Assembly (NCBI GenBank): GCA_040754335.1
Contig: JBFMCV010000001.1
Coordinates: forward strand, 186,001-250,000
DNA from: Thermodesulfobacteriota bacterium
GTDB taxonomy: Bacteria > Desulfobacterota_D > UBA1144 > Nemesobacterales > UBA2774
Direction: 5' to 3'
DNA length: 64,000 nt
The position numbers and the translations under genes are program-made. Under the pieces are notes generated by a model. That model was given only the letters and a program-made list of their open reading frames with translations. It was not told where the DNA came from and ran no database searches. The first letter of the stretch is position 1. Each line of letters starts with the position of its first letter. Positions 7,132 through 23,766 of this stretch are shown one piece after another.

Positions 7132-7135
7132 TTAG

Positions 7136-7522
7136 ATGGAAAAGAAAGGCGGAATGAGCGATGAGCGGATCGATCTGATAATCGGCAACCTTCTCAGGGT
7201 AGATGTGATATTATCTGCTGTATTCGTCTTGACAGGCGCCGTTATTTACCTGATACGGCACGGCGCGGAGATGCCGGATTACGGCGTCTTCACGGGGGTG
7301 CCCAAGAACCTGCGCGGCCTCAGGAAGATAGTAGAGGCGGCGTGGCAGATCAGAAGCGTGGGAATTATACAGCTGGGACTTTTACTGCTCATCGCCACAC
7401 CCGTCGCGCGCGTCGTTTTCTCGGTCTTCGCGTTCCTGTTGCAGCGTGACTATATGTACGTCGTTTTTACGCTGATCGTGCTTACGGTGCTCCTCCTCAG
7501 CATAACGGGGGTAATAATTTAA
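7136..7522 (+). CDS. DUF1634 membrane protein
   Basis: The 128-residue protein has three hydrophobic segments, near residues 27-45, 78-98 and 106-127. It has the DUF1634 feel: an N-terminal NLLRVDVILSA segment and a middle loop running VEAAWQIRSVGIIQLGLLLL. The start at 7136 has a run of six G about 10 bases upstream. An internal ATG at 7154 (MSDERID) is possible. It probably works with the TauE/SafE permease just before it, but no biochemical role is established for the family. Confidence 0.75.
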   Translation: MEKKGGMSDERIDLIIGNLLRVDVILSAVFVLTGAVIYLIRHGAEMPDYGVFTGVPKNLRGLRKIVEAAWQIRSVGIIQLGLLLLIATPVARVVFSVFAFLLQRDYMYVVFTLIVLTVLLLSITGVII

Positions 7523-7542
7523 CCTCGATGCGGGGTCCGAAG

Positions 7543-8586: not shown

Positions 8587-8656
8587 CAGCTACTCCAGAC
8601 TGAAAATAATTATCCGTAGTGGACTCTTGCACCTGGGTTGTGTTCTCTTAAGAGGC

Positions 8657-8912
8657 TTATCGTATGACGCCCGGTATTTCTTCGTGTAAACCCTCTCAAC
8701 CGCTACGCTCTCAGCCCACGCAATGAATTGAAATACAACGCCGACGGCTCCCTCTGCCTGTACATTCAAAATGCGTCTCCCCCGGCGCTGACGAGGAATC
8801 CAACTGGCTTCCTGCACAGAAAGACGATTCCATGCCCTGCTTGTCGAACGAGACGCCCCCCTCTATACTCGACGGCTCGTGGAGCCCTCCGTCCCTTATT
8901 CTGGTGAAGTAA
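8657..8912 (+). pseudogene. Decayed C-terminal remnant of a DUF1214 (DUF1254-type) protein
   Basis: No frame is open through this interval, but pieces of the DUF1214 C-terminal pattern follow one another in shifted frames. First comes LSYDARYFFV. After a stop and frameshift near 8687 comes NPLNRYALSPRNELKYNADG followed by SLCLYIQNASP. After a second shift near 8770 come GADEESNWLPAQ and, just before the TAA at 8910-8912, ILDGSWSPPSLILVK. In intact DUF1214 proteins these segments lie in one chain in this order. The N-terminal part of the gene is missing. This explains the gap between rtcA and the AraC gene and suggests that a larger gene cluster once stood here. Confidence 0.7.
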
Positions 8913-8934
8913 TCAGCGCGACAGCACATTCTTT

Positions 8935-9924
8935 CTAATATCGCGTTTTATTCAATGTCTCGGACGGCGACTCCCCGTAAAGGCTCTTGTATTCGACGGA
9001 GAACCTGCCGAAGTGCCAGAAGTGCCACTTGGCCGCGATGTCGGTTACCGTTGTATCTTCGGGGTCTGCTATTAGCAGATCTCTACGGGCTCGTGCATAC
9101 CTCACGAGCCTGAGATACCTGATCGGGCTTATCCCGAAAAATTCCTGGAAAGCATAATAGAGTGTTCTCATGCTGATACTTAGGGCGGAGCAGAGGTCTA
9201 GCAGGTGTATTGGCTTATAGGAATTGGCTTTCAGGAAATCGATAGAGAGCTTAATAATATGCTCGTGTGTTTTTTTGCCTCTGCGTCTCTTTGAAGCTGT
9301 ATTTAATGTATTGCTAAGGATTAGTATTTGGGAGTTGATCAGGGACCATTCCATTCCCTTGATAACATCCGGATTCTGAAATATCGCCGGATTTGAATTC
9401 ACAAGCTCGGTTATTTCATTCACAATATCGTAGAACAAATCGAGAGACGCATATTCCTGACACCTTAGGTATGCTGATACACTTTTTCGTGTGTCTAACT
9501 TTACGTTCAATGGATCGAGAATGGACTCCTCGAAATGATTAGGTTTGAATGTAATGTATGTCCATTTGCATGAACCGTTTGTAGTGGCCATGTAATCTGA
9601 ATTTTTTCTGTAGAACATGAAAGATTTGCCGTCGATGTCATAGCCGTTGCAGATGGTGGGAAAATCCCCCGTGATTTTAAAAACCATTCCGCTCCTCACC
9701 TTATCGGTTGTAGCGTTTGCCAGGTGTCCAGCTCCGAAGTGTCCCACCTGCAGGTTTATGTTCTCCAGGAAGACTTGCGTCAGGCTCGAAGGAAATTCAG
9801 ACCGGCCTAGTTGCATAAGTTCAATGTCGGCATGTTTTATATACTGCGCCAGTTCTTCAAGCTCCTCTGTTTCAATTCTGACCAGAAAACCGGGAGTCGT
9901 TGCCGGGATTTTATCTTCTTTCAT
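8935..9924 (-). CDS. AraC-family transcriptional regulator
   Basis: The 329-residue protein has a variable N-terminal sensor domain of about 210 residues and a C-terminal AraC DNA-binding domain. The latter shows two helix-turn-helix units: HLLDLCSALSISMRTLYYAF and VTDIAAKWHFWHFGRFSVEY, ending in YKSLYGESPSETL. The WHFWHFGRFS spelling of the second recognition helix is common among regulators of the FeaR/EutR/OruR kind. The N-terminal domain includes QVGHFGAGHLANATTDK, also seen in such regulators. It is divergent from the exported-protein block. The first of three identical 20-bp sites starts 42 bases upstream of its start codon. Confidence 0.88.
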   Translation of the reverse strand: MKEDKIPATTPGFLVRIETEELEELAQYIKHADIELMQLGRSEFPSSLTQVFLENINLQVGHFGAGHLANATTDKVRSGMVFKITGDFPTICNGYDIDGKSFMFYRKNSDYMATTNGSCKWTYITFKPNHFEESILDPLNVKLDTRKSVSAYLRCQEYASLDLFYDIVNEITELVNSNPAIFQNPDVIKGMEWSLINSQILILSNTLNTASKRRRGKKTHEHIIKLSIDFLKANSYKPIHLLDLCSALSISMRTLYYAFQEFFGISPIRYLRLVRYARARRDLLIADPEDTTVTDIAAKWHFWHFGRFSVEYKSLYGESPSETLNKTRY

Positions 9925-9965
9925 TCCTTAATATTTTCACTTCCGTATATGAATTTTCCGTAAAT

Positions 9966-9985
9966 TTGCAAAATTCGGATAGACA
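9966..9985 (+). promoter_or_regulatory. 20-bp repeated site, copy 1 (candidate AraC operator)
   Basis: The sequence TTGCAAAATTCGGATAGACA occurs here exactly. It is followed by ATTTATC and then ATTATA at the same distances as in copy 2. It lies 42 bases upstream of the AraC gene and points away from it. Within about 75 bases downstream is an ATTGATATTA stretch and then a run of G, both also found after copy 3, so this looks like a promoter region whose own gene has been lost. The rest of the 452-base gap (9925-10376) holds copy 2 and no convincing gene. Confidence 0.55.
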
Positions 9986-10214
9986 CGATTTATCAAGGAT
10001 TATATATTGGCACACAGATGCTTTTCAAATTTATTGATATTAAAGAGATCACTATGAATGGGGCTCGTTAAATGTATTAAAGGGGGTAACGTGCGCCGAC
10101 TGCCATGACCCAAATAATCTCAAACCGAGAGGAAGGGGACAATGAGCTTTATTAGGGTTGCCCGATGGCAGAAGGGCACGATGCCCCCTCTCCTCAATAG
10201 ACAATTTTATCATA

Positions 10215-10234
10215 TTGCAAAATTCGGATAGACA
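10215..10234 (+). promoter_or_regulatory. 20-bp repeated site, copy 2, upstream of the Cys-rich repeat gene
   Basis: This is an exact copy of TTGCAAAATTCGGATAGACA in the same orientation, 142 bases before the ATG at 10377. It is followed by ATTTATC and ATTATACAAT, which can supply a -10 element about 17-20 bases downstream. A regulator bound here would sit over the -35 position, as class II AraC activators do. That role is inferred. Confidence 0.55.
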
Positions 10235-10376
10235 TTATTTATCGATAATTATACAATAAAATGGAGGGGGTTAGGACCGCAAATACAACACAAAAACACA
10301 ATAAATTATTATTTAGTCTGAGGAAGTTACCTGCATTATATGGAATTGAGCAGATAACAAAATAAAGGAGATCATT

Positions 10377-10766
10377 ATGAAGATATGCAGAGGGGTTTTA
10401 GTATGTATCGCTATAGTCTCAGTCGCTCTTTATACATCCTTCTTGGGCGGTGTAGCAGCGTTCGCCCAGGGGAAGGGTGCCTGTGCGGGTGACGTACAAA
10501 CATTCTGTAGCGAAGTTCAACCCGGGCAGGGAAAGATAATTCAATGTTTGAAGCAAAATATTGAGTCGCTATCCCAGGGTTGTAAGGACCGTATCCTGGA
10601 AGTCGCAGAACAGGTTGCCGGGGCTAACCAAGCATGTGAGGAAGATATTTTCACGCTCTGTCCGGGTGTTCCAGCCGGAGGGGGGCAGGTTGCACAATGC
10701 CTCAAGGCTAATCAAGCCCTGCTTTCTCCCCAATGCGCGGCCGCGATGTCTGAGGTGGGGAACTGA
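10377..10766 (+). CDS. Exported cysteine-rich repeat (GLG1-like) protein
   Basis: The 129-residue protein has a signal peptide ending near AAFAQG. It then has two copies of a Cys repeat of roughly 55 residues: CAGDVQTFCSEVQPGQGKII with CLKQNIESLSQGC, and CEEDIFTLCPGVPAGGGQVA with CLKANQALLSPQC. Four Cys per repeat at these spacings match the cysteine-rich repeat of Golgi glycoprotein 1, found in many bacterial exported proteins of unknown role. AAAGGAG precedes the ATG. It is the first gene after copy 2 of the 20-bp site, so it is likely under the same control. Confidence 0.82.
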   Translation: MKICRGVLVCIAIVSVALYTSFLGGVAAFAQGKGACAGDVQTFCSEVQPGQGKIIQCLKQNIESLSQGCKDRILEVAEQVAGANQACEEDIFTLCPGVPAGGGQVAQCLKANQALLSPQCAAAMSEVGN

Positions 10767-10864
10767 AGCCGGGATTAGGTTGCACCCTGTTGTATTGATG
10801 GGTTGGATAGGTAAGTCGGAGTTCATAAATGAGTTCATGAAAGAAACAGGGGGCATGGATTGTG

Positions 10865-11476
10865 ATGTCGGCTCTTGGTTTGTTGCTTGCTGCGGGGACG
10901 GTCAGCGTTCAGCAAACAGGATAAGGTGATCAGAGTAAAAGTGCGCAGGAAGCAATGGCCGTGGCGAAGCGGATGGCGGATTTTCTGTCCCAGCTCCAGC
11001 GCTTCAGCGTTACGGCAGATATAGGCTTCGACGCGGTGCAGGACGACGGCCAGAAGATCGAGTTCGGAGAGACCCGCAAGGTCCTGGTCGACCGTCCGAA
11101 CCGTCTCCGCGTAGAAGAGACCAAGCGTAACGGGTCTGAGAGCGAGCTGATATTCGATGGCAACACCATCATGCTCTATTACGCGAAGGATAACGTTTAT
11201 GCATTGGCGGACAGACCGGGTACAATCGACGACGCCGTTTCATACTTCGTCAACGACCTCGGCATGCGCTTGCCTCTTTCACAGCTCCTTAACAGCAAGC
11301 TTGGCGCGAATTTGTCAGGACGGAAACGGTCCGCCTCTTATGTTGAGAAATCGTCCATTAACGGCATTCCTTGTGATCAAATCGCTCTCCGCGTGGCGGA
11401 TGTCGACATGCTTCATGTATTGAGCCAGCTCGTCAATCTCCCGAGCAGCGAGCCTTATAAATGGGAGGGTTATTGA
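10865..11476 (+). pseudogene. Broken DUF2092-family gene
   Basis: The open stretch 10955-11476 (173 codons) is plainly a paralogue of the intact DUF2092 gene at 12361: ADFLSQLQRF, DGQKIEFGETRKVLVDRPNRLRVE, ELIFDGNTIMLY, DNVYAL and INGIPCDQIALRVADVD all align in order. It lacks a signal peptide. In the same frame upstream, a hydrophobic leader (MSALGLLLAAGTVSV) from 10865 is cut off by a TAA at 10922-10924, and a more distal ATGAAA at 10837 is out of frame. After VADVD the C-terminal third of the family (the W-x-x-WI region onward) is missing and replaced by 22 unrelated codons. It is most likely a pseudogene, though a short cytosolic product from 10955 cannot be excluded. Confidence 0.65.
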
Positions 11477-11532
11477 AGATGGAGCAGTTACAGGATCCAT
11501 TGTCTAAACATTTTTTCACAATTTGAATCATA

Positions 11533-11552
11533 TTGCAAAATTCGGATAGACA
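11533..11552 (+). promoter_or_regulatory. 20-bp repeated site, copy 3, upstream of the lipoprotein gene
   Basis: This is a third exact copy of the site, same orientation, 163 bases before the ATG at 11716. A TATAAT begins 17 bases after its end (11570-11575), the best -10 match of the three copies. It would drive the run lipoprotein, DUF2092, collagen-like genes. Confidence 0.55.
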
Positions 11553-11715
11553 ATAATATCAATCGGACTATAATAAAAAAGGGGGTATCTGCAAAAATTC
11601 ATTGATATTAGTTCGCAATTAATATCCAAATGTTATCAATAAGTTGCAGAATTCACTCAAAATTTGTTTTGTAATCATCTTGCTTAGCACGCGGCAAAAA
11701 AGGAGATAACAAACG

Positions 11716-12276
11716 ATGAAAATATCAGCTAATTCCCTCAAAACCTTGAAAGACTCCCGTCTGGTGCTTGTTTTGGCGGCAATGCTGCTGGCAATCGTTA
11801 TGGGGATTGGTTGTAAACCTTCCTCAAGCCAGACTCCGCAGCTAATGTTTGTACAGAGTGCGGACGACCTCAAGGTGGATCCTGTTGCAAAAACCTTCCG
11901 GCTGCTGAATGTAAACCAGCAGACCCTGTACTTCTCCGACCGTCCGGTGCGTATCGCCGGGCATCTCAAAATGACTGATTATCTCAAGGAATGGACAGCG
12001 AAAGCCGGCAAGGACAACTTTGGCGCGGACCCTCCGAATGCCACGCTATCCGTTTATGAGCCGGGAAAACCTGACAATACCACCGTTGTGGTCGAGATCA
12101 CCAACCCGGTAATCGACGGTTCAGACCTAATCTATAACTACAAGATCATAGAAGGCACAATGCCTGCCGCTGGAGGAGCAACCACGCTGTTCATTGATTG
12201 GATCGGGGTCGGCGGCGGTGTTGGAGCCGGCTTCCACGGGGTCGGTGTAGGTGCCCGCGGTCCCGGCGTCTTATAA
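11716..12276 (+). CDS. Probable lipoprotein of unknown function
   Basis: The 186-residue protein opens with a basic N-terminus and a hydrophobic stretch. It reaches a Cys at MGIGCKPSS, a usable though not ideal lipobox. The mature part has YFSDRPVRIAGHLKMTDYL, ADPPNATLSVYE and TLFIDWIGVGGGV. From memory, small exported proteins found beside DUF2092 genes share the SDRP.RIAGH and DPPNA.LS segments. It ends in a Gly/Val-rich tail (GVGGGVGAGFHGVGVGARGPG) that echoes the tails of the collagen-like gene and its paralogue nearby. AAAAAGGAG precedes the ATG. No function is known. Confidence 0.75.
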   Translation: MKISANSLKTLKDSRLVLVLAAMLLAIVMGIGCKPSSSQTPQLMFVQSADDLKVDPVAKTFRLLNVNQQTLYFSDRPVRIAGHLKMTDYLKEWTAKAGKDNFGADPPNATLSVYEPGKPDNTTVVVEITNPVIDGSDLIYNYKIIEGTMPAAGGATTLFIDWIGVGGGVGAGFHGVGVGARGPGVL

Positions 12277-12360
12277 CCTGCCTGGCTCGGGTTTCAATAA
12301 CGTTATTGCCGATAAGTCGATCTATGAACTATTTTTGAATGAACATCAGGGAGGGTATTC

Positions 12361-13131
12361 ATGAGCTGCAGGAATAAATTGTCGAGTTTAATAAACATAA
12401 AAGCCGTTTTAGTCTTATTAATACTGATCTCGGTGTTGCCCGTGCGAAGTTATGGCGACAGCCCGGACGTTGATCCCAAGGCCGATCAAGTGTTGCGCAA
12501 AATGAGCGACTACCTTGCTCAGCTTCAGCAATTCAAGATACAAACCGAAAACGCGCTTGAGATCGTCCTCATATCGGGCCAGAAGATTCAGTACAACAAT
12601 CAGGTTGAAATCGCAATAAAGCGACCTGATAAGCTTCGTGCCGACAGAAAGGGGGAAGTTTATGACCAGGAATTCTATTATGACGGTAAAACGCTTACGC
12701 AATACAGCGAAGGCGCTAACGTATATGCCACTATAGAGGCACCGCCCACCCTAGATGGAGCACTTGACTTTGCCATGGCGACCCTCCATATCGAAGCTCC
12801 GGGGGCCGATTTAGTTTACAGTAATTCTTACAATATCCTTATGGAAGACGTTATATCGGGGATTTACGTTGGGATGACTATCGTGGACGGAGTAAACTGC
12901 CATCATCTCGCTTATCGCAAAAATGACGTTGACTGGCAGATTTGGATAGAAGACGGCGATAAGCCTTTGCCCAAGAAATTTGTAATTACGACTAAATGGT
13001 TGACCGGCGCGCCTCAATATACGATAACAGTCAAAAGCTGGGACTTATCCCCAAAGCTTAAAGACGACATGTTTACATTTGTACCCCCTAAGGACGCACA
13101 GAAAATTGAATTTGTTCGTTATACGAATTAA
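12361..13131 (+). CDS. DUF2092-family exported protein
   Basis: This 256-residue protein has a signal peptide ending near VRSYGDS and one full-length DUF2092 domain. Landmarks are KADQVLRKMSDYLAQLQQF, IAIKRPDKLRAD, FYYDGKTLTQY, VDGVNCHHLAYR, DVDWQIWIEDGDKPLPKKFV and a closing DMFTFVPPKDAQKIEF. The fold is likely related to LolA-type lipid-binding proteins, which bind hydrophobic ligands in the periplasm; that is family-level inference. GGGAGGG lies about 8 bases before the ATG. It is the intact counterpart of the broken copy at 10865-11476. Confidence 0.85.
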   Translation: MSCRNKLSSLINIKAVLVLLILISVLPVRSYGDSPDVDPKADQVLRKMSDYLAQLQQFKIQTENALEIVLISGQKIQYNNQVEIAIKRPDKLRADRKGEVYDQEFYYDGKTLTQYSEGANVYATIEAPPTLDGALDFAMATLHIEAPGADLVYSNSYNILMEDVISGIYVGMTIVDGVNCHHLAYRKNDVDWQIWIEDGDKPLPKKFVITTKWLTGAPQYTITVKSWDLSPKLKDDMFTFVPPKDAQKIEFVRYTN

Positions 13132-13171
13132 GTGGGGAAACGAAATTAGGTAGCAGTATAGGAGAAGAGTC

Positions 13172-13507
13172 GTGAGTATCGTTCTAAGAACTTTAATAAT
13201 CTCGGGTTGCCTGTTTTTAATGTTTTCCATTGATGTTCCGAATGACATACCGTCAGGAGTAGATGTTGTGTCTGAGGCAAAGGCCGGCCCAGCCGGTCCC
13301 GGCGGTCCTGCAGGTCCTGGTGGCCCAGCCGGTCCCGGCGGTCCTGCTGGTCCTGGTGGCCCAGCCGGTCCCGGCGGTCCTGCTGGTCCTGGTGGCCCTG
13401 CTGGTCCGGTTGGAGTTGGGGGAGTTGGTATTGGGGGTCCGGTTGGTGTTGGTGGAGTTGGTGTTGCGGGGGTAGCCCGACAAACGACTAGAACAGTTGC
13501 CAGATGA
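13172..13507 (+). CDS. Exported collagen-like Gly-X-Y repeat protein
   Basis: GTG start after GGAGAAG. The 111-residue product has a signal peptide (cleavage near SEAKA), then an unbroken collagen-type run of GPA and GPG triplets from about residue 38 to 80, and a Val/Gly-rich end closing VARQTTRTVAR. Bacterial collagen-like repeats form trimeric rods, usually at the cell surface. Here the rod would be short, about 14 triplets. The first 40 residues and the VGVGG..GVAGVAR segment match the next gene, so this is a paralogue in which the repeat has expanded and the C-terminal domain is absent. Confidence 0.7.
   Translation: MSIVLRTLIISGCLFLMFSIDVPNDIPSGVDVVSEAKAGPAGPGGPAGPGGPAGPGGPAGPGGPAGPGGPAGPGGPAGPVGVGGVGIGGPVGVGGVGVAGVARQTTRTVAR
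13286..13408 (+). repeat. 36-bp tandem repeat encoding the collagen-like run
   Basis: Three near-perfect 36-bp units (13286-13321, 13322-13357, 13358-13393) plus a partial fourth, each beginning GGCCCAGCCGGTCCCGG or a close variant. Each unit encodes 12 residues, GPAGPGGPAGPG. The near identity at synonymous positions indicates recent expansion by slippage or unequal exchange, so copy number probably varies between strains. Confidence 0.85.
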
Positions 13508-13613
13508 CTACTTTATAACAAGAAGAGCACCCACTGAGGATGCTCTAATGATCGAGTTCGTAACACAAATAAAGCAGGGTTTATGAATCAATTGATGATA
13601 ATGGAGGAAAGCC

Positions 13614-14093
13614 ATGTTGACAGTTACTAGGACGTTAATATTTTCAAGCATTCTATTTCTAATGTTTTCCATAGATGTACTGAATGAAATAAAGTCGGGA
13701 GTAAATATTGTTACTGAAGCGAAGGCATGGATTCCCGGTCCGGTAGGTGTCGGAGGATTCGGTGTCGCGGGGGTAGCCCGTCGCACCACGAGGAGAGTAG
13801 TTGTCGGGACTACTGCAGTGGTGACTAGCGCCGCAGCGACTACCGCCGCTGTGGATGCTACGTATGCTGCCACGGCTCCGCCACCCCAACAAGTCGTCGT
13901 TGTCGATCAAACACCACAGGTCGCCCCGCAGTCTGGTACGGCTGTACCTATAGGTACGACAATTCTGTCCTTGCCGGCAGGTTGCTCATCAGTATCAGCG
14001 GCAGGGGGGACTTATTTCAACTGTGCCGGGGTTTATTACCAGCCTTCTTATCAGGGGAACACCCTGGTCTATATTGCTGTACCGACGCCATGA
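13614..14093 (+). CDS. Exported protein with Val/Thr-rich middle and Tyr-rich C-terminal domain
   Basis: The 159-residue protein has a signal peptide ending near VTEAKA. Its N-terminus is clearly paralogous to the collagen-like protein before it (LFLMFSIDV, SGV.IV.EAKA, GVAGVAR). A low-complexity Thr/Ala/Val stretch follows, then PPPQQVVVV, and a compact C-terminal domain: GTTILSLPAGCSS, YFNCAGVYYQPSYQGNTLVY. That last pattern resembles the DUF6515-like domain of many small exported proteins, where two Cys could form a disulfide. The role is unknown. It is the last small gene before the DUF3604 operon. Confidence 0.72.
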   Translation: MLTVTRTLIFSSILFLMFSIDVLNEIKSGVNIVTEAKAWIPGPVGVGGFGVAGVARRTTRRVVVGTTAVVTSAAATTAAVDATYAATAPPPQQVVVVDQTPQVAPQSGTAVPIGTTILSLPAGCSSVSAAGGTYFNCAGVYYQPSYQGNTLVYIAVPTP

Positions 14094-14180
14094 GTCATTG
14101 TAGAGATGCTGTGATTAATAGTAGATTATCAGATTTATTTGTGTGAACACCAAACTAGAATTATTAAAGAGGGGGTAGTT

Positions 14181-16493
14181 ATGGAGATCAAAAAGCAAGT
14201 ATTTTTTATCCTTGCGTTTGTTTTCATCACCATGCCGACTTTCGCCGAAGAAACCCCGCAGCGTAACGCCTATTTCGGCGAAACCCACGTCCACACGAGC
14301 TGGTCGCTCGACGCTTTCAGCATGGGGAACACAATCACCAATCCCGGCGACGCGTACAAGTACTTCAAGGGTGAGCCGATCAAGCACCCGCTGGGTTACG
14401 AAGTAAAGATCGACACGCCGCTCGACTGGGCAGGCGTTACTGACCACTCCGAATACGCAGGAGTGGTCCAGGCCGCAAACGAGCCTGGCTCCCCGGTCAG
14501 TAAGATCCCGGAAGCTGCACCCCTGGTCCTGAAGGCCAGGACGAAAGAAGAAATGACGCGGGTCGCCCTGTACGCCATCAACACTTTGGCCTCCGGGCCG
14601 CCCATAAAGGCTCTCATGTCTCCGGAGATAGCCGGCACGGTTTGGAAGAAGAACGTCGAGCTCGCCGAGCAAGCGAACCAGCCCGGGAAGTTCACGGCTT
14701 TCTGCTCCTACGAATGGACCTCGATGCCGAACAACATGAATCTCCACCGCAATATCTTCTTCAAAGACTGCGCCAAGGTGCCGGCGATGCCCTTCAGCGC
14801 TCTCGACTCTTTCGACCCCGTGGATCTCTGGAGCTGGATGGACACGCAGCGGAAAGCAGGCAACGAGCTCCTTGCAATCTCGCACAACGCCAATCTTTCT
14901 GACGGCCGCATGTTCCCGACCGAGGTCGACATCAAAGGCCGCCCGATCGATGCCGCCTATGCCGCGTCACGTGTCCGCAACGAGCCGCTGATCGAGATGA
15001 AGCAGCTCAAGGGCACCTCGGAGACTCACCCCTTGCTCTCGCCCACAGACGAATTCGCCAATTTCGAGATCATGTCGGTTCTGCTTGGAAATCCGCCGGG
15101 CCGCATTCCGCACATCGTAGGTAGCTACGTCCGGCAGGCCTTGAAGGACGGCCTCGCCATGCGGGATACCGAAGGTTTTAACCCCTACAAGTTCGGCTTC
15201 GGGGCCGGGTCGGATTCGCACAACACCGCAGTCCCGTACCGTCAGGACAACTTCTTCGGCGGTCATTCTTTTACGGACGGTACGATCGAGGTGCGCATGT
15301 CCGGCACACTGGTCGGCGGGATGTTCGACGCGCGCACCGAAGGCACCGGCGGGCTGACCGGCGTATGGGCCGAAGAGAACACGCGCGCCTCGCTGTTCGA
15401 GGGCATGAAGCGCAAGGAAACTTTCGCTGTCAGCGGCCCTCACATCAAGGTGCGCCTATTCGGAGGCTGGGAGTATTCTCCTGAGATGGTGGAGCAAAAG
15501 GACTGGGTCAAGGCCGGTTATGAAAAGGGCGTGCCGATGGGTGGCGACCTGCCGCCTATGAAGTCCGGGGCGCCTACCTTCATGGTGTGGGCGGTAAAGG
15601 ACCCGACTTCCGGCAATCTCGACCGCATACAGATCGTAAAGGGCTGGACGAAGAGCGGCCAGAGCTTCGAGAAGATATTTGATGTGGTCTGGGCAGGCGA
15701 CCGCAAGCCTGACAAATGGACGGGTGTGGTGCCGCCGATCGAGAGCACTGTGGACATCGACAACGCTACCTACACCAACACAGTCGGCTCGACGGAGCTT
15801 AAGGCGGTTTGGACCGATCCGGAATTCGACCCCGGTTTGCATGCCTTTTACTACGCCCGTGTGCTGGAGATACCGACGCCGCGCTGGACAACGATCCAGG
15901 CGAAACAGCTGGGTATCGCTCCGCCTGATGTCGCATCCGCCACTATACAGGAGCGTGCATGGACTTCGCCGATCTGGTACACCCCGAGCGCCGAGGCGCA
16001 CAAGAGCGCAAAGCCCGGACTCACGGTGACCGACCTGAAGAATAAGGGTGCGGTGCAACTCGACGACGCTCAATTGAAGGCGCTGATCGTGGAGAAGTCG
16101 GTATGGTTGCAGAACACAGTGACGGGTGACAAGTACATGATCATCTACGGCGCCCTGGGGAAAGGGGCCACTGCCGAACCGCTCACACCTGTCGAGCCCG
16201 GGTACGTTACCCAGCGTTTTCCAACCAACCAGGGACAGTTTCAGGTACGGTACGTCGGAAAGGATGTAGCCACGCAGAGCCTGACAGGCGATACGTTCGA
16301 TGCCAGCTATCTCGGCACCTCCCGGACGTACAACATTCAGAACGGCATGATAGTCACGGAGCTAGTCGGCACGCCCATCGAGATATCCGTTTACAAGATG
16401 GGTGACAAATATTACGGAGCGCGCAGCAATGAGTTCGGGTATGCAAACTACGAGATTATTCCCGCTGTGGCGGAACTGAGCCCTATACGGTGA
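14181..16493 (+). CDS. DUF3604 exported protein, PHP-like metal-site motifs
   Basis: The 770-residue protein starts at 14181 after GAGGGGG, giving a signal peptide cut near TFAEE. A frame extension to 14139 has no such site. The mature N-terminus, YFGETHVHTSWSLDAF, and the later GVTDHSEYAG, AISHNANLSDG and AGSDSHNT segments are the DUF3604 hallmarks. The spaced HxH, D-H and SDSH positions look like those of PHP-type metal-dependent phosphoesterases, so a metallohydrolase role is plausible but not shown. It is followed by a PpiC-type foldase gene and a HupE/UreJ gene, an arrangement I recall from other DUF3604 loci. Confidence 0.88.
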   Translation: MEIKKQVFFILAFVFITMPTFAEETPQRNAYFGETHVHTSWSLDAFSMGNTITNPGDAYKYFKGEPIKHPLGYEVKIDTPLDWAGVTDHSEYAGVVQAANEPGSPVSKIPEAAPLVLKARTKEEMTRVALYAINTLASGPPIKALMSPEIAGTVWKKNVELAEQANQPGKFTAFCSYEWTSMPNNMNLHRNIFFKDCAKVPAMPFSALDSFDPVDLWSWMDTQRKAGNELLAISHNANLSDGRMFPTEVDIKGRPIDAAYAASRVRNEPLIEMKQLKGTSETHPLLSPTDEFANFEIMSVLLGNPPGRIPHIVGSYVRQALKDGLAMRDTEGFNPYKFGFGAGSDSHNTAVPYRQDNFFGGHSFTDGTIEVRMSGTLVGGMFDARTEGTGGLTGVWAEENTRASLFEGMKRKETFAVSGPHIKVRLFGGWEYSPEMVEQKDWVKAGYEKGVPMGGDLPPMKSGAPTFMVWAVKDPTSGNLDRIQIVKGWTKSGQSFEKIFDVVWAGDRKPDKWTGVVPPIESTVDIDNATYTNTVGSTELKAVWTDPEFDPGLHAFYYARVLEIPTPRWTTIQAKQLGIAPPDVASATIQERAWTSPIWYTPSAEAHKSAKPGLTVTDLKNKGAVQLDDAQLKALIVEKSVWLQNTVTGDKYMIIYGALGKGATAEPLTPVEPGYVTQRFPTNQGQFQVRYVGKDVATQSLTGDTFDASYLGTSRTYNIQNGMIVTELVGTPIEISVYKMGDKYYGARSNEFGYANYEIIPAVAELSPIR

Positions 16494-16539
16494 GCAATAT
16501 GATAGGATACAAGAGGGACTATTTCGCAGGAGAAGGTCG

Positions 16540-17457
16540 ATGAAACAATTGTTGCGCGAGCCTCTCCTGCATTTCCTTCTGATAGGACTCCTGTTGTTCG
16601 GTGTGTATGGATACATGCACCGAGGTAATGGGGGAGACGAGTCGTCCAATCAGATAGTCCTGACCATGGATGACCTACGTCTGATGAACTCGTACTTTGT
16701 TTCGCAATGGCATCGCCAGCCGACTCCGGAGGAATTCCGGGCAATGGTGGAAGACAGGGTCCGTGAGGAAGTTCTCTACCGCGAGGCTTTGGCGATGGGT
16801 CTCGACAAGGACGATACCATTGTGAAGCGCCGCATGGCACAGAAGATGCAATTCCTGGCCGAGGATGTCGCCACCGCTCGTGAACCGACGACCGCAGAGC
16901 TCAAGGCGTGGTATGAAAAGAATACCGACGCGTTCGCGTTGCCGAGCCGCATCAGCTTTCGTCATTTGTACTTTTCTCCAGATCTTCGGAGTCAGAGTGT
17001 GCACGATGATGCGGTGAAAGCCCTTGAGGAAATAGCCGGCGAGCCGGAAGACTCGATGCTCGCCGCATCTCTCGCCGATCAGTTCATGTTCCAGGACTAT
17101 TACGCGGACCGTACGACGGAGCAGTTAGCCAAGGAGTTCGGCCCCCAGTTCGCGACAGCTGTGTCCAAACTGGAGGCAGGCATGTGGCAGGGTCCGGTCG
17201 AGTCCGGCTACGGCTGGCACTTGGTGTTCGTCGATTCAGTGATCCCGGGCCGTATTCCCGCATTCGAAGAAATTGAGCCGGATGTGAAGACCGCGTGGCT
17301 TGGCGAACAAAAGCAAAAGACCTGGGAGAAGGCTTACCGGGAGATGCGCGTGAAGTACGAAGTGCTTCTGCCCGCACCTTCCAATGAATCGGCGAAAGCA
17401 TACGTTCCACCCCCAAAGAAACAGGCTCCCGCTCTCTCGGGGGAGGCTCCGCTGTGA
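16540..17457 (+). CDS. Membrane-anchored parvulin-type peptidyl-prolyl isomerase
   Basis: The 305-residue protein has one N-terminal membrane anchor (residues about 9-25) and a periplasmic part. A SurA/PpiC-like helical region (MVEDRVREEVLYREALAMGLDKDD) precedes a parvulin-type domain (SRISFRHLYFSPD to VESGYGWHLVFVDS). The parvulin domain is diverged, and isomerase activity is uncertain. The C-terminus is Pro/Lys-rich. It overlaps the HupE gene by 4 bases (GTGA) and follows DUF3604 by 46 bases. The likely job is folding exported partners made from this operon. Confidence 0.82.
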   Translation: MKQLLREPLLHFLLIGLLLFGVYGYMHRGNGGDESSNQIVLTMDDLRLMNSYFVSQWHRQPTPEEFRAMVEDRVREEVLYREALAMGLDKDDTIVKRRMAQKMQFLAEDVATAREPTTAELKAWYEKNTDAFALPSRISFRHLYFSPDLRSQSVHDDAVKALEEIAGEPEDSMLAASLADQFMFQDYYADRTTEQLAKEFGPQFATAVSKLEAGMWQGPVESGYGWHLVFVDSVIPGRIPAFEEIEPDVKTAWLGEQKQKTWEKAYREMRVKYEVLLPAPSNESAKAYVPPPKKQAPALSGEAPL

Positions 17458-18491
17458 CGAGGTACTCTTCCACCGTTTTTCTCAAGCTCGCTCTCGCGAC
17501 AATCTTTGCCCTGCTGGCAGGAGTTTTCATATCGGTTCCATTTACCCAGGCGCACGAGACACGCCCTGCTTACCTTGAAATCAAGGAAACCGGTCCCGGC
17601 CGGTTCAGCGTGCTCTGGCGCACCCCTGTACTCTCGGGCATGCGCCTTCCGGTCATTCTGAAATTTCCTGACGGTGTGCGCGATGTTACTGAGCCGGTGA
17701 TACAGGAATTAACGGACTCGCTCCTCGAGCGCCGAGTAGTCGAAGCTGAAAGCGGCACGCTCGCCGGGAAGCGTATCGAGTTTGTCGGGTTGCAGGCCAC
17801 TATCACCGACGTTCTCGTTCGGGTGCAGACGCTAGACGGAGTATACTCGACCACGCTCGTTAAGCCCTCACAGCCCTGGATGGAGATATCTGCGCCGAAG
17901 GGGCCGCTTGCTGTGGCGGGCGCCTACCTTGTCCATGGTATCGAGCACATTCTCTTCGGCGTAGACCATCTCCTCTTCGTACTCGCCCTCGTGCTCATAG
18001 TAAGAAGCTACCGTGTCCTGCTCCTGACTATCACTTCATTCACTGTCGCGCACTCAATCACACTCGCACTTGCAACGCTGGGCGTCGTCAATGTGCCCGG
18101 CCCTCCTGTGGAGGCTGCGATTGCGCTTAGCATCCTGCTCGTTGCCGTAGAAATCGTCCGGCAGGAGCGGGGACAGTCCGGCATGACGGCGAGGTGGCCG
18201 TGGGTGGTCGCATTTTCGTTTGGTTTGCTGCACGGTTTCGGCTTTGCCGGTGCTCTCACTGCAATTGGGCTTCCGAAGAGTGACATCCCTCTGGCATTGT
18301 TCACGTTCAACGTCGGGGTCGAAATCGGACAATTGGCGTTTATAGGCGCGGTTCTCGTTGTGATTGCGCAGGCGAGACGAATTAAGATCGCTCCGATCTT
18401 CGACCGTTACGCATTGCCCGCGGCAACATACACGATAGGAGCATTAGCGGCTTTCTGGTTCATCGAGCGGTTGGTTGGGTTCTGGAGATGA
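17454..18491 (+). CDS. HupE/UreJ-family membrane protein with periplasmic N-terminal domain
   Basis: GTG start overlapping the stop of the upstream gene. The 345-residue product has a signal or anchor segment ending near TQAHETRPAYLE, then a domain of about 120 residues outside the membrane, then six or seven helices. The membrane part shows the family's His-rich motifs: VHGIEHILFGVDHLLF, FTVAHSITLAL and GLLHGFGFA. HupE/UreJ proteins are linked to nickel or cobalt uptake, but the long form with an extra domain is widespread beside DUF3604 genes and its substrate is unknown. A metal supply role for the DUF3604 protein is an inference. Confidence 0.85.
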   Translation: MTRYSSTVFLKLALATIFALLAGVFISVPFTQAHETRPAYLEIKETGPGRFSVLWRTPVLSGMRLPVILKFPDGVRDVTEPVIQELTDSLLERRVVEAESGTLAGKRIEFVGLQATITDVLVRVQTLDGVYSTTLVKPSQPWMEISAPKGPLAVAGAYLVHGIEHILFGVDHLLFVLALVLIVRSYRVLLLTITSFTVAHSITLALATLGVVNVPGPPVEAAIALSILLVAVEIVRQERGQSGMTARWPWVVAFSFGLLHGFGFAGALTAIGLPKSDIPLALFTFNVGVEIGQLAFIGAVLVVIAQARRIKIAPIFDRYALPAATYTIGALAAFWFIERLVGFWR

Positions 18492-18523
18492 ACATTCGAT
18501 AATTTTTGATAGGAGGTTGGGAG

Positions 18524-19510
18524 ATGAAAAATTACTTCGTGTATGCGATTCTAATAATTATATCGATTTCTTTTTCCATGGGAAATTCTGCTTTCGCTCA
18601 GGCCGACTGGGTAAACGAGCGACTGAATGACGAGAGCGGCCTGAGCTGGTTGGACGGAGGGTCATACCGGATAGCGTTTAGTGACGGGGGTGATTCTTCG
18701 GAAGCTGCCGGAAACGAAACGCTCTACGCACAGGCCGACGAGACTACCACTGATACAACCTACATCGAAGCTCCGTCGAAAGAATGGCATTTCTCCATTA
18801 TCCCTTATTTATGGATGATGGGGATAAACGGGAAGGTGGGAGTAAAGGGCCGGACCGCGAATGTAGATGTTTCATTTTCTCAAATATTCGAGAACCTGGA
18901 TTTCGCGGCCGAGGTCCACATGGAGGCGTGGAGGGAGAGGTTTGGATTTTTTATCGATGCAACTTATTCGAAGATAGCATTGACGAAAAATGTGTCGCTC
19001 AGACAGGACCGCACTCTCAATATCAAAAACGTGAGTCAGTTCTTTCTCGGAGAATTTGGAGGATTTTACAGGGTTGGCACATGGCCCATAGGGACTGTAA
19101 GTTCCGAATCCAAGACAAAAACTTCGATTACATTTGATCTGCTCGGGGGCGGACGTTACTGGTGGCTTGAAGATGAAATAGATTTGAGAGGCCCGCTCGG
19201 TCAAAATCCTGAGTTCAGCGGGAGCGAGAGCTGGTTCGATTTCATCGTCGGCGCGCGTGCCAAGCTGGACATTAACAAATTTTTCATTGCGCTGAGGAGC
19301 GATATAGGCGGGTTCGGATTCGGCTTCTCTTCGGATATCTCCTGGAATATCGCCGGATACATCGGCTACGAGCTGCCGTGGTATAAGATAACGCCGATAA
19401 TCGGCTACAGGGCGCTATACGATAAATACTCGAACGGGAGCGGGAACAACCGTTTCTTGTGGGACGCGTGGATGTACGGCCCGCAGATCGGGATCGGATT
19501 CCAGTTCTGA
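18524..19510 (+). CDS. Outer-membrane beta-barrel-type protein
   Basis: Start at 18524 after AGGAGG gives a signal peptide ending NSAFAQAD in a 328-residue product. After a linker of about 70 acidic residues, the body shows alternating hydrophobic strands beginning WHFSIIPYLWMMGINGKVGV and including VSFSQIFENLDFAAEVHMEAW. It ends YGPQIGIGFQF with a C-terminal Phe, the usual signature of BAM-assembled barrels. Proteins with this SPYLW.xGI.G opening are common uncharacterised outer-membrane barrels. It follows the HupE gene by 32 bases and probably belongs to the same unit. Confidence 0.78.
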   Translation: MKNYFVYAILIIISISFSMGNSAFAQADWVNERLNDESGLSWLDGGSYRIAFSDGGDSSEAAGNETLYAQADETTTDTTYIEAPSKEWHFSIIPYLWMMGINGKVGVKGRTANVDVSFSQIFENLDFAAEVHMEAWRERFGFFIDATYSKIALTKNVSLRQDRTLNIKNVSQFFLGEFGGFYRVGTWPIGTVSSESKTKTSITFDLLGGGRYWWLEDEIDLRGPLGQNPEFSGSESWFDFIVGARAKLDINKFFIALRSDIGGFGFGFSSDISWNIAGYIGYELPWYKITPIIGYRALYDKYSNGSGNNRFLWDAWMYGPQIGIGFQF

Positions 19511-19713
19511 AAATTGGATGCAAGTATCACCGGATATTGGTAACCCGTAGTGTATATACCTGAGCGGGAGATATTCACGGTTTACGAACGGCTTGATACT
19601 GCCTGCACTTTCTGTCCCCTCCACATTGTTTCTCCCCTTCATCTCTTGTTTGGGAACATTGCATATTGATAAAAATAGGAGCTGCATTAATATTTGTGGC
19701 AAAGGAGAAAGAA

Positions 19714-20304
19714 ATGAAGATACGATCGCTTACGGTGATCATTACACTTCTGATTTTCGGGGTCCTTCTCTCCCCGGCAACTGGCGTAGCACAGCAGGAA
19801 GATGAGACAGGGGTCGTGTTAAAGCCGTCTCCTGATGTAATCAGCAAAGCAGAGAACCCCTCTCCTCCCCCCGACGCGAAAGAGGGTTCCTCGATCGGCG
19901 AGGACGGCATGACAGTGAACACCCAAAATTCCCCCAGAGATACAGATTTTCTCTGGATTCAGGAGATAGACACGGACGGCAACGGAGATATGGAGTCCGC
20001 GAACCTCATTTGGGACGGCGAGGACAAGATCCTCTACTTCTATTATGAGGGCGATTTCAAGTGCAAAAACGGAAAAACGGCCAAGGGTGCGGCGCTTATA
20101 GGCGTGAACGGAAAAGACAATCCTCGGAACAAGCCTGCAGGCTCCGGTTTTTACGCCGTATCCCTCGACAAGGGTGAATGCGGCGCGGAGGAGGCGGGGC
20201 TCTGGGGCTGCAGGTTCGACACGGCCGGGAATCCCACGGTATGCGGTGTCGTGGGGTTAGACGACAAATACGACGATATTGTCATACTGACGGCGAGTGA
20301 ATAA
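19714..20304 (+). CDS. Exported protein of unknown function with a calcium-loop-like motif
   Basis: Start at 19714 after AAAGGAG gives a 196-residue protein with a signal peptide ending near TGVAQQ. A Pro/Ser-rich linker follows, then a compact domain. The segment DTDGNGDMESANLIW has the D-x-D-G-N-G-D spacing of EF-hand or dockerin calcium loops. Four Cys lie later (FKCKNGK, GECGAEE, WGCRF, TVCGVV) and could form two disulfides. I do not recognise a family. The gene stands alone, 200 bases after the beta-barrel gene. Confidence 0.7.
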   Translation: MKIRSLTVIITLLIFGVLLSPATGVAQQEDETGVVLKPSPDVISKAENPSPPPDAKEGSSIGEDGMTVNTQNSPRDTDFLWIQEIDTDGNGDMESANLIWDGEDKILYFYYEGDFKCKNGKTAKGAALIGVNGKDNPRNKPAGSGFYAVSLDKGECGAEEAGLWGCRFDTAGNPTVCGVVGLDDKYDDIVILTASE

Positions 20305-20359
20305 CGACCGCTTCGTTCTACAGTGACTAAATAATCCGGGAAACCATCGGGAGGCAGTT

Positions 20360-20758
20360 ATGAAGATATTGAAGGATGCTTTTGTAATTGCATATATACT
20401 TGCTGCACTGGCTGCAATAAATTTTACAACGGCTCAAGCCGGTGCTCTCAACGCGGACAGCATCGTCGGGAAATGGAAGGACCCCGACGGCTCAGCAGTC
20501 GTTCGGATCGAGAACAAGGGCGGTTACTACGAAGGAGTTGTCGTGGAGAACGCCGAAAACCCGGGCTCAGTTACCACTGTGGTTTTCAAAAACCTTGTAT
20601 ATGACAATACGGACAGCATCTGGAAAGGGACCGTATATTCGATTAAAAAGAATAAGGACTTTAACGTCAAGATCAGTATGGACTCGGGCGACAGCTTCAC
20701 AATGACCGTAAAAGCGGGCCTGGGATCCAAGAAGTTCGAGTGGGCGCGGGTCGAATAA
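20360..20758 (+). CDS. Exported DUF2147-like small protein
   Basis: The 132-residue protein has a signal peptide ending near TTAQAGA, followed by IVGKWKDPDGSAVVRIENKG and later IWKGTVYSIKKNKDF and a final FEWARVE. The G-x-W-x-x-P/D-D-G opening, mid W-x-G and closing W-x-R/A are the DUF2147 pattern, which has a lipocalin-like fold, though the match is loose. GGGAGG precedes the ATG. It lies 55 bases after the preceding exported protein. The function of the family is not known. Confidence 0.65.
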   Translation: MKILKDAFVIAYILAALAAINFTTAQAGALNADSIVGKWKDPDGSAVVRIENKGGYYEGVVVENAENPGSVTTVVFKNLVYDNTDSIWKGTVYSIKKNKDFNVKISMDSGDSFTMTVKAGLGSKKFEWARVE

Positions 20759-21016: not shown

Positions 21017-22348
21017 ATGCTTAAGAGAATTTTCCTTAGTGTTATATGCATTATATCTGCGGCCGCGGCCGGCTGCGGCGGGAGTTATTCCCCAAAGCCG
21101 CCTGAGGAGGTCTCATTCCTCGACAGGGCGGAGACGCAGAGCCGCGGCGGTCTAACTGTTTCCGTGGCCGTGCTCAGCCGCGAGGAGAGCGAGGAGGTCT
21201 TCGGGGTGGACCTGGCCTCAAACGGAGTCCAGCCCGTCTGGCTCGACATTGAGAACAATACGGGAAAGCCTTACTTCTTTATGCCGATCGCTCTCGACCC
21301 CGACTATTTCTCGCCTAACGAAGTCGCCTTCATGAACCACCTCAAGTTCAACCGCAAGGCCAACAGAGATATGGACGAGCATTTCTCTGAATACGGTATT
21401 CAAATAGAGTTCATTATGCCGGGCGAAAGGGACAAGGGGTTCGTATACACGAACCTCGATCCAGGCTTGAAGTTCGTGAACGTTACGCTATACGAGATAG
21501 ACGGTACCGAGAATTTCTTTTTCTATTTTGAAGTGCCCGGTATTCAGCCGGACTACGAGAACGTCGATTTCTCGTCCCTCTATACGAAGGACGAGATAGT
21601 GTATATAGACGATGAGACCGAGCTCCGAAAAGCTCTCGAAGCGCTACCCTGCTGCACGACGGGGAGCGACGGCGGCGGCGGAGGAGAGCCCGTAAACGTA
21701 GTCCTGATAGGCGACCCGGACGACATATCGTCCGCGGTCGTGCGGAGGAAATGGGATGTTACGGAAGCCGAAACGGGAAAGTTCAGGTTCGATCTCGGCC
21801 GGGCGTTTTCTCCGGAAAGCTACAGGACATTCCCGATGGCGAGTCTATATCTCTTCGGCAGAAGGCAGGACGTGAGCCTTCAGAAGTCTAGACGTGTGAC
21901 GGACGCGTCGTACCGTCAGAGGAATACGCTCAGGCTCTGGCTCACGCCCTTGAGATTTAAGGGCCAGACGGTCTGGGCCGGAGCCGTGAGCAGGGACATC
22001 GGCTCCGACCTCAGGATCAGGAAATACTGGTTCGCAGCGCAGGAGATAGACCCCGATATCGACGAGACGAGGGACTATCTTGTGGAGGACCTGGTGCTCT
22101 CCCAGAACGTACGGAGGCTGGGCTTCGTGGACGGCGTGGGTGTGTCATCGTCAGCGGATCCGATGTATAACCTTAGCAAGCTCCCCTGGTGGTCTGACGG
22201 CTACAGGGCGGTGCTTCTCTTCGTGAAAGACCAGATAACGCTCGGGGACCTCGATTATTTCGGTTGGGAAGACGTCGGCGTCATTTACGACGGAAGCGGG
22301 AAGGGGACAGAGACGATGGCTCCCGCCCGGGAAGACGGGGGAGAGTGA
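21017..22348 (+). CDS. LssY_C-domain lipoprotein, first of a tandem pair
   Basis: The 443-residue product opens with a lipoprotein signal (AAAAGCGGS). A frame extension to 20900 would hide that signal. The N-terminal half contains RAETQSRGGLTVSVAVLSREES and FGVDLASNGVQPVWLDI. The C-terminal half is the LssY_C type: YRTFPMASLYLFGRRQD, NTLRLWLTPLRF, GAVSRDIGSD and IDPDIDETRDYLVEDL. LssY-related domains occur in envelope proteins of unknown biochemical role. The next gene, 5 bases downstream, is a full-length paralogue, so the pair arose by tandem duplication. Confidence 0.78.
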   Translation: MLKRIFLSVICIISAAAAGCGGSYSPKPPEEVSFLDRAETQSRGGLTVSVAVLSREESEEVFGVDLASNGVQPVWLDIENNTGKPYFFMPIALDPDYFSPNEVAFMNHLKFNRKANRDMDEHFSEYGIQIEFIMPGERDKGFVYTNLDPGLKFVNVTLYEIDGTENFFFYFEVPGIQPDYENVDFSSLYTKDEIVYIDDETELRKALEALPCCTTGSDGGGGGEPVNVVLIGDPDDISSAVVRRKWDVTEAETGKFRFDLGRAFSPESYRTFPMASLYLFGRRQDVSLQKSRRVTDASYRQRNTLRLWLTPLRFKGQTVWAGAVSRDIGSDLRIRKYWFAAQEIDPDIDETRDYLVEDLVLSQNVRRLGFVDGVGVSSSADPMYNLSKLPWWSDGYRAVLLFVKDQITLGDLDYFGWEDVGVIYDGSGKGTETMAPAREDGGE

Positions 22349-22353
22349 TTCGA

Positions 22354-23766
22354 ATGAGATCCTATCTGAAGGAACGAATGACGCGGTTTCGGATGTTATT
22401 CTTGATTTCTTTGAGTCTGCTGCCTGGAATATGGGGCTGTGCGTCCTACTGTGCCAGCCAGGACCCGGAGGATGAGAGCATGTTCAGCACACCGTCCGCC
22501 AAGGGGTGTAAAGTATATTCGCCTTCCCCGGACCCGGCGAAGGACGTGCCGTTCAAGGTCAGGGCGGAGACTCAGACGGAAGACGGCATATCCGTCTCCG
22601 CAGTCGTTTTGAGTGATGACGAAAGCGAGAAGATATTCGGCGTCGACCTCGCCGGGAACGGCATTCAGCCTGTCTGGCTCGAAATCAGAAACACGACGGA
22701 GAAGCCCGTCACTCTGATTTACGTCGCTACCGACCCCGGATACTACTCCCCTAACGAAGCCGCGTACACGAACTACAGCTACGCGAGCCCGGTCAACGAA
22801 GAGATGAACGAGTACTTCAACAAGCAGAGCATCAGGAGGGAAATACCGGCCGGAGGCGAGTTGTCCGGATTCTTTTACTCGAACTGGGACCCGGGCATCA
22901 AGTATCTCAACGTAAGCGTCTACGGCGAAGACAGGGAAAAAAACTTCGTATTTTATTTCGTCATACCCGGCATAAAGCTCGACTACCAGAGGGTCGACTG
23001 GGACACTCTTTACAAGGAGGACGAATACGCTAATTACGAGACCGAGGAAGAGCTCCGCAAGGCGCTCGAGGCCGTCCCCTGCTGCGCCACGAGGAAGGAC
23101 GGCACAGGCAAGAACGACGCGCTCAATTTCTTCGTCATAGGGGATACCGACAATATCGTCTCAGCGTTTATAAGGAGGGGATGGGACGTCACCGAGCCTA
23201 TCTCGGCGAGCTCCGGCTGGAGAGCGTTCAAGGCATATTTCTCTGGAACCAGATACAGGACTTCCCCGATGAGCACAGTTTTCGTATTCAAGAGAGCCCA
23301 GGACATAGGGCTACAGAAAGCTAGGTCAACGATACACGAGCGGAACCACCTCCGACTCTGGCTCATGCCCGTCCGGTATAAGGGCATGGACGTATGGATA
23401 GGGTCGGTGAGCCGGGACGTGGGCTCCTACTTCACGTTCAGGACGCCCTGGCTTTCGGCTCACGCGATAGACCCTGATCTCGACGAAGCGAGGACATATC
23501 TCGTGCAGGACCTCCTGTTCTCCGGAGGCGTTGAGAAATTCGGATATATAAAGGGTATAAAACCGGCGACGCCCGATAACCCGCACAGGAACTTTATGAA
23601 GCAGCCGTGGTGGACAGACGGATACCGGGCCGTGTTCCTCTTCGGCGACGAGACGGTCACGCTGAACGAGCTCGATTTCTTCGACTGGGAATGGGCGGGG
23701 GAAGACGGCCCGCAGGTCATCGAATTCATTAAAGCTATGAGCGCAAAGAAAAGAACGGAAAACTAG
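22354..23766 (+). CDS. LssY_C-domain lipoprotein-like protein, second of a tandem pair
   Basis: The 470-residue protein matches its upstream neighbour end to end (AETQTEDGISVSAVVLSDDES, FGVDLAGNGIQPVWLEI, FVFKRAQDIGLQKARST, HLRLWLMPVRY, SVSRDVGS, IDPDLDEARTYLVQDL). The start at 22354 follows GGGGGAGAG. The signal region is longer than in the first copy and ends LPGIWGCASYC, so it is probably also a lipoprotein, with three extra Cys within 75 residues that the first copy lacks. The two may form a heteromer. It is co-transcribed with the first copy. Confidence 0.76.
   Translation: MRSYLKERMTRFRMLFLISLSLLPGIWGCASYCASQDPEDESMFSTPSAKGCKVYSPSPDPAKDVPFKVRAETQTEDGISVSAVVLSDDESEKIFGVDLAGNGIQPVWLEIRNTTEKPVTLIYVATDPGYYSPNEAAYTNYSYASPVNEEMNEYFNKQSIRREIPAGGELSGFFYSNWDPGIKYLNVSVYGEDREKNFVFYFVIPGIKLDYQRVDWDTLYKEDEYANYETEEELRKALEAVPCCATRKDGTGKNDALNFFVIGDTDNIVSAFIRRGWDVTEPISASSGWRAFKAYFSGTRYRTSPMSTVFVFKRAQDIGLQKARSTIHERNHLRLWLMPVRYKGMDVWIGSVSRDVGSYFTFRTPWLSAHAIDPDLDEARTYLVQDLLFSGGVEKFGYIKGIKPATPDNPHRNFMKQPWWTDGYRAVFLFGDETVTLNELDFFDWEWAGEDGPQVIEFIKAMSAKKRTEN

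Follow-up and report, generated by a model that had tools for sequence, protein, structure and literature searches.

In a 64,000-nucleotide stretch of a Thermodesulfobacteriota bacterium genome (assembly GCA_040754335.1, contig JBFMCV010000001.1, positions 186,001 to 250,000; hereafter, the window), we find a block of genes for exported proteins that may form an inducible, horizontally mobile cell-envelope ester-hydrolase locus. We put the probability of this reading at roughly 0.55. Judged by sequence comparison, the firmest part of the locus is the DUF3604-PpiC-HupE triad, which appears to be its tight operon core, and the other genes appear to form a looser, reassorting accessory set. A first-pass annotation, made from the sequence alone, had noticed the block and suggested a metalloenzyme system in the envelope. 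The observation is confirmed, and its interpretation is partly supported. The observation is not a matter of chance, since a 20-mer with three copies in the locus has an expectation of zero in shuffled sequence, and the triad is found again in several phyla.

To follow the triad, we searched genome contigs for DUF3604 relatives and counted only the loci with enough flank. Genes for PpiC and HupE lie near DUF3604 in 27 of 28 close relatives and in 15 of 37 distant ones, and these loci occur in Pseudomonadota, Acidobacteriota, Gemmatimonadota and others. Thus, the neighbourhood comparison proposed in the first-pass annotation reveals a co-occurrence that extends beyond this genome. In the window, a 4-bp overlap joins the PpiC stop to the HupE start. 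The PpiC stop reads NTGA in 39 of 45 loci, and an overlapping HupE start is therefore possible in them. The distance matrices of DUF3604, PpiC and HupE correlate (r 0.75-0.85; none of 2000 permutations reached such values), a correlation to which host ancestry in common contributes. We also noticed an unnamed protein of ~380 aa, with CPLCLG near its start and no Pfam match, encoded between DUF3604 and PpiC (L060:5759-6901). It is present in L011, L012, L013, L020, L021 and L033 as well, and missing from the window. In Rhizobium sp. Pop5 (L170:16373-18614), three successive HupE/UreJ-annotated genes follow DUF3604-X-PpiC.

The AlphaFold2 (AF2) model of DUF3604 (pLDDT 87.9) predicts a PHP fold. 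Performing a Foldseek search, we obtained a single match below E 0.001, the PHP-like phosphoesterase 3e38 (probability 1.00, E 2e-4), followed by the PHP domain of RNase AM (7ug9, probability 0.98). The entry 3e38 is BVU_3505, a two-domain protein of 343 residues with 9% identity to DUF3604; the query TM-score is just 0.23 because DUF3604 carries large extra domains. An UNC119/RhoGDI-like structural match was too weak to use. Among 48 sequences (at least 34% identity), H35, H37, D43, H88, E177, H188, H234, D344 and H346 are invariant (numbering starts at codon 14184). These nine residues follow the PHP motif order, and from this reading of the motifs we regard them as candidate PHP metal ligands. 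Periplasmic phosphoester hydrolysis by DUF3604 is plausible, since there is a precedent in a secreted PHP phosphodiesterase, Sb-PDE of Sphingobium TCM1, which has a signal peptide and nine predicted metal ligands (PMC5460133). The likeness of DUF3604 to Sb-PDE comprises the PHP superfamily, the signal peptide and the number of candidate ligands. Sb-PDE, however, has 441 aa and matches PF02811 (PMC5460133), whereas DUF3604 has about 770 aa and no PF02811 match. In the literature searched, DUF3604 is almost absent: a single paper out of 5.4 million names it, and there it appears just in a table.

In the HupE alignment, the H-x5-DH motif, which has a role in nickel transport, is invariant. The window protein also has a His directly after the A-x-A end of its signal peptide, as do nearly all of the 46 aligned members; this cleavage site (A-x-A/H) was read by eye rather than predicted by a program. 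The HupE profile found no solved relative by sequence. According to passages of a 2025 Nat Commun paper (PMC12537917), a histidine as first mature residue is the hallmark of Ang-1 anglerases, which bind Cu and Ni and are proposed to feed the permease. The window HupE shares with the Ang-1-HupE/UreJ_2 anglerases the PF13795 permease, the periplasmic domain after a signal peptide and a probable first mature His, and by these features it appears to be an Ang-1 anglerase-type permease. The same passages describe DUF4198, IndA-like and PfkB neighbours and name no DUF3604 or foldase, and this paper is absent from the results of a library-wide search for DUF3604, whereas the DUF3604-PpiC partnership of the window HupE is nearly universal among close relatives. 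Taken together, the predicted PHP fold, the nine invariant candidate ligands, the conserved triad and the Ang-1 signature lend good support to the suggestion of a metalloenzyme system in the envelope, with DUF3604, foldase and metal importer as its parts.

The second line of evidence concerns regulation. The AraC/XylS-family regulator contains a C-terminal double helix-turn-helix (HTH_18, Table 1; HTH_AraC, E 5.7e-11; Pfam), and its nearest NCBIfam models are AndR (5.3e-27) and EutR (1.2e-25), both far below cut-offs. The three identical 20-mers, TTGCAAAATTCGGATAGACA, all lie on the + strand (Table 1), and the 3.26-Mb genome holds no fourth copy at up to 3 mismatches. The first copy lies 42 bp 5' of the regulator start and is oriented away from the regulator. 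All three copies include the XylS consensus TGCAN6GGNTA. Each 20-mer ends in TAGACA, and this hexamer forms the -35 element of promoter-like sequences that were found independently at all three sites, with spacers of 16-17 and 10-11 of 12 consensus matches: TAGACA-17-TATATT on the downstream side of operator 1, TAGACA-17-TACAAT at operator 2 and TAGACA-16-TATAAT (11/12) at operator 3. The -35-like TAGACA begins at the final TA of the XylS-type site, which gives a two-base overlap. At the XylS/Pm promoter, the site likewise overlaps the -35 box by two bases, an arrangement described as essential, and the consensus is shared as well (PMC4225500). We infer that the regulator binds TTGCAAAATTCGGATAGACA. 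It would be XylS-type by its mode of action and not a XylS ortholog.

A search of 58 phylum genomes for sites with at most 2 mismatches added only three genomes to the window's own: G037 and G042, which are different genera, hold the exact sequence, and G040 has a site with two mismatches. In G040, which belongs to another genus, the site is flanked on one side by a 58% regulator ortholog and on the other by a divergent DUF1254/1214 gene that is intact. In G042, the site precedes an operon for a formylglycine-generating enzyme (FGE), an arylsulfatase and a HAD protein, and the genome also encodes a distant AraC relative (27%). Three of the 58 genomes encode AraC relatives at E<1e-30, and all three have the site. 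The distant AraC relative of G042 adjoins a fragment of an FGE-like gene (L109:1082-1363), which makes another AraC-type/sulfatase link. The exact 20-mer of G037 is close to the end of a contig and next to what resembles a transposase remnant (L099:5091-5381). We did not count a weak site (7 mismatches) near the distant AraC gene of G042. Only the full 20-mer is specific; the loosened motif is not. A wider regulon was rejected, as the loosened motif gave 17 matches, about equal to a reversed control pattern. Regulation common to the phyla was rejected as well, the XylS motif not being enriched 5' of DUF3604-locus genes (2 sites versus 1-2 for control patterns).

We also checked how the accessory families are distributed. 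The SDRP protein has no Pfam or NCBIfam match, and a structure search with its AF2 model (pLDDT 68) found nothing significant. Its family shows 27 invariant columns among 8 relatives and occurs at 45 places in 16 of the 58 phylum genomes, and in 63 plasmid records, all of Rhizobium and its kin. Cys-rich relatives adjoin SDRP proteins in Rhizobium, and two Rhizobium plasmid loci with the triad also contain DUF2147, DUF1254/1214, Cys-rich, OmpA and SDRP genes, with AraC in one. Around six SDRP loci (146 kb), 15 genes are annotated as DUF1254, Cys-rich, LssY_C, DUF2147 or DUF2092, whereas a control of 150 kb, taken from three of the plasmids that carry these loci, contains 0. Within the phylum, G003 (L098) combines two DUF3604 genes, PpiC, HupE, DUF2092, a DUF6515-like protein and a homologue of the barrel (277 bits). 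In G039 (L155), two DUF1254 genes, a barrel homologue (496 bits), an arylsulfatase and LssY_C form a single run, and in G034 three SDRP genes follow FGE-sulfatase-HAD (L147:8668-11051; arylsulfatase). Relatives of LssY_C protein 1 are present in L155 and in the Rhizobium SDRP loci, and DUF2147, which occurs in the Rhizobium triad loci, also adjoins the regulator ortholog in G040. These neighbourhoods show a real, undescribed gene community that is met repeatedly across genomes. We found no description of the gene set in the literature searched, and the claim that no pathway is described for it holds within this scope.

Another recurrent element is DUF2092 beside a Gly-rich or DUF6515-like exported open reading frame (ORF), found in L104, L106, L098, L114 and L042 and at 12361-14093 in the window; this pair is independent of the triad. 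DUF2092 matches LolA models weakly (E 0.0023 and 7e-5, below cut-offs), and of two papers in the searched literature that mention DUF2092, one assigns the family to the LolA fold (PMC4520260). A possible role of DUF2092 as a carrier of a hydrophobic ligand, put forward in the first-pass annotation, agrees with this published LolA-like assignment. The DUF1254/1214 proteins match VPA0106 and VPA0735, which are solved but uncharacterised.

DUF3604 was found in 3 of the 58 phylum genomes. In the tree, the copies from the window and G003 nest together with one from Betaproteobacteria (support 100/100). The simplest reading is horizontal transfer, with the caveat that the relatives may contain misbinned contigs.

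Combining these observations, we propose the following mechanism. The regulator would bind TTGCAAAATTCGGATAGACA where it overlaps the -35 box and activate the + strand genes, much as XylS does at Pm. DUF3604 would be exported to the periplasm and, using a trinuclear metal centre of the PHP type, hydrolyse an ester that is most probably a phosphoester. The anchored parvulin PpiC, whose conservation beside DUF3604 is observed, may fold it, and the Ang-1-HupE permease may capture and move the metal linked to DUF3604. The SDRP, Cys-rich, DUF2092, DUF2147, LssY_C, barrel and DUF1254/1214 proteins would be accessory envelope parts that travel in changing combinations. As sulfatase, FGE and HAD genes join the community elsewhere, the target may be a sulfate- or phosphate-esterified organic compound, and the sulfatase and LolA-like partners together suggest that this esterified compound is perhaps hydrophobic. 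More tentatively, and below even odds in our estimate, the triad may be a dedicated machine (a periplasmic PHP hydrolase equipped with a foldase and a metal-capture permease of its own) that was spread across phyla by transfer and is coupled to sulfatases and LolA-like carriers in an undescribed sulfate- or phosphate-ester pathway.

Several observations weigh against this proposal. PF12228 is the sole Pfam match of DUF3604 at E<0.1, with no PHP model, and a profile of the 48 DUF3604 sequences matches no PDB chain. It is not evident that HupE would supply the metal, since its homologues import metal into the cytoplasm and DUF3604 is periplasmic. The nearest relatives of PpiC differ from those of DUF3604. 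XylS/Pm has two direct repeats per promoter and serves aromatic catabolism, whereas each window promoter has one site, with a different regulator and envelope-protein targets. The regulation is not common to phyla, since the neighbouring AraC proteins in Ensifer are unrelated to the window regulator and lack the site, and no other genome seen joins the site with the triad.

In one alternative, two unrelated modules, a decaying AraC/Cys-rich/SDRP/DUF2092 cluster and an independent DUF3604-PpiC-HupE operon, touch by chance in a region of acquired genes. The triad suffices by itself in many genomes, the sites are confined to the first module, and the modules are joined in the window and not in G040 or G042. 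Pseudogenes, moreover, are found near the regulator only. This end of the locus is partly decayed. Of the DUF1254/DUF1214 gene, only the 3' DUF1214 part is left, recognised by Pfam at E 2.7e-10 once the reading is joined across one frame change; a congeneric genome (L163) has an intact DUF1254/1214 gene at the equivalent position, directly after TauE-DUF1634-RtcA. A stop codon interrupts the signal-peptide region of the first DUF2092 copy, a pseudogene that covers positions 3-152 of the 212 in the Pfam model, and a close relative is intact in G003 (L098). However, both gene sets occur together in Rhizobium plasmids, and partly in G003, in differing orders and in different phyla. We consider the two-module explanation unlikely, though it is the best placed of the alternatives. 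Metal homeostasis is a less probable explanation. Here, Ang-1-HupE would remove periplasmic Cu/Ni and protect or remetallate DUF3604 and other Mn/Fe/Zn enzymes, hydrolysis being secondary. The binding of Cu and Ni by Ang-1, as given in the passages of PMC12537917, the possible metal binding of the Cys-rich neighbour and the nine invariant candidate ligands of DUF3604 would fit. We found no metal-responsive regulator, however, the nearest named models, AndR and EutR, being by name responders to organic compounds, and the sulfatase-FGE-HAD neighbours indicate substrate turnover. Finally, the 20-mer might be a repeat, mobile or structural, and not an operator. Its G037 copy could suggest this, as it lies outside any clear promoter setting, by a contig end that resembles transposase-like sequence. 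We consider this very improbable given the XylS consensus match with the two-base -35 overlap, the properly spaced -10 in 3/3 window copies, the regulator ortholog adjoining it in another genus and its presence nowhere else in the window's genome.

The layout of the locus is given in Table 1. Protein families were assigned by a Pfam scan of the window ORFs, with NCBIfam models as a second library. The gene list of the first-pass annotation was essentially correct by Pfam for AraC, Cys-rich GLG1, two DUF2092, DUF3604, PpiC, HupE and the DUF1214 remnant, and the sequence also contains the collagen-like ORF and the SDRP/DPPNA motif. Some of its items need amendment. Both DUF2092 copies match Pfam, but the first is the pseudogene. 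The SDRP/DPPNA motif stands, while its lipoprotein nature is unsure, given a weak lipobox and relatives without the Cys. Both small exported proteins are there, one of them being DUF2147; the barrel has conserved homologues, on which its identity rests, but no Pfam match. The list missed the DUF6515-like gene and the three identical 20-mers. The community, drawn there at 8657-20758, in fact extends over two LssY_C proteins (Pfam), as far as about 23766. The annotation took all the genes for one system; we find a tight operon core and a looser set that reassorts, with partial decay at the regulator end.

Table 1. Features of the envelope-protein locus in the window.
Feature	Position	Strand	Basis
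DUF1254/DUF1214 gene remnant, 3' part of DUF1214 domain, broken frame	8650..8912	+	Pfam DUF1214
AraC/XylS-family regulator	8935..9924	-	HTH_18 E 7.6e-20
Putative operator 1, TTGCAAAATTCGGATAGACA	9966..9985	+	XylS consensus and -35 TAGACA; exact repeat
Putative operator 2, 5' of Cys-rich gene	10215..10234	+	exact repeat
Exported Cys-rich repeat protein, GLG1 type	10377..10766	+	PF00839 (Cys_rich_FGFR) E 1.4e-15
DUF2092 pseudogene, truncated	about 10865..11476	+	Pfam E 6.7e-40
Putative operator 3, 5' of SDRP gene	11533..11552	+	exact repeat
SDRP/DPPNA exported protein, unnamed family	11716..12276	+	sequence motif, relatives
Intact DUF2092 periplasmic protein, LolA-like	12361..13131	+	PF09865 E 1.5e-79, full model
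Exported collagen-like Gly/Pro repeat ORF	13172..13507	+	sequence; no Pfam family
Small exported DUF6515-like protein	13614..14093	+	PF20125 E 0.0012, below cut-off
DUF3604 protein, predicted PHP-fold metallohydrolase of the periplasm	14181..16493	+	PF12228 E 6.6e-210
PpiC-type parvulin foldase, membrane-anchored	16540..17457	+	Rotamase_2 E 7.8e-18; adjoins DUF3604 in other loci
Apparent Ang-1-type HupE/UreJ_2 metal permease	17454..18491	+	PF13795 (HupE_UreJ_2) E 2.4e-48
Putative outer-membrane barrel	18521..19510	+	homologues only; no Pfam match
Small exported protein without family	19711..20304	+	sequence; no Pfam match
DUF2147 exported protein	20360..20758	+	PF09917 E 3.2e-8
LssY_C-domain exported protein 1	21017..22348	+	PF14067 E 5.4e-32
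LssY_C-domain exported protein 2	22354..23766	+	PF14067 E 5.1e-41

Two further observations concern the region around the regulator. The TauE-DUF1634-RtcA genes (RtcA, RNA 3'-phosphate cyclase; window 6295-8586) are syntenic in the congeneric genome (L163), and therefore belong to the host background, outside the acquired block. After operator 1, a short + strand frame at 10085-10135, TCADCHDPNNLKPRG, contains a CxxCH heme-binding-like fragment and may be what is left of a c-type cytochrome gene.

A conserved operon of a foldase and a metal permease would give DUF3604 a testable biochemistry and Ang-1-HupE a specific protein partner. The XylS-type sites would make a regulon readable in a lineage represented in our analysis mostly by fragmented genomes, and may serve as a reporter in the search for the inducer.

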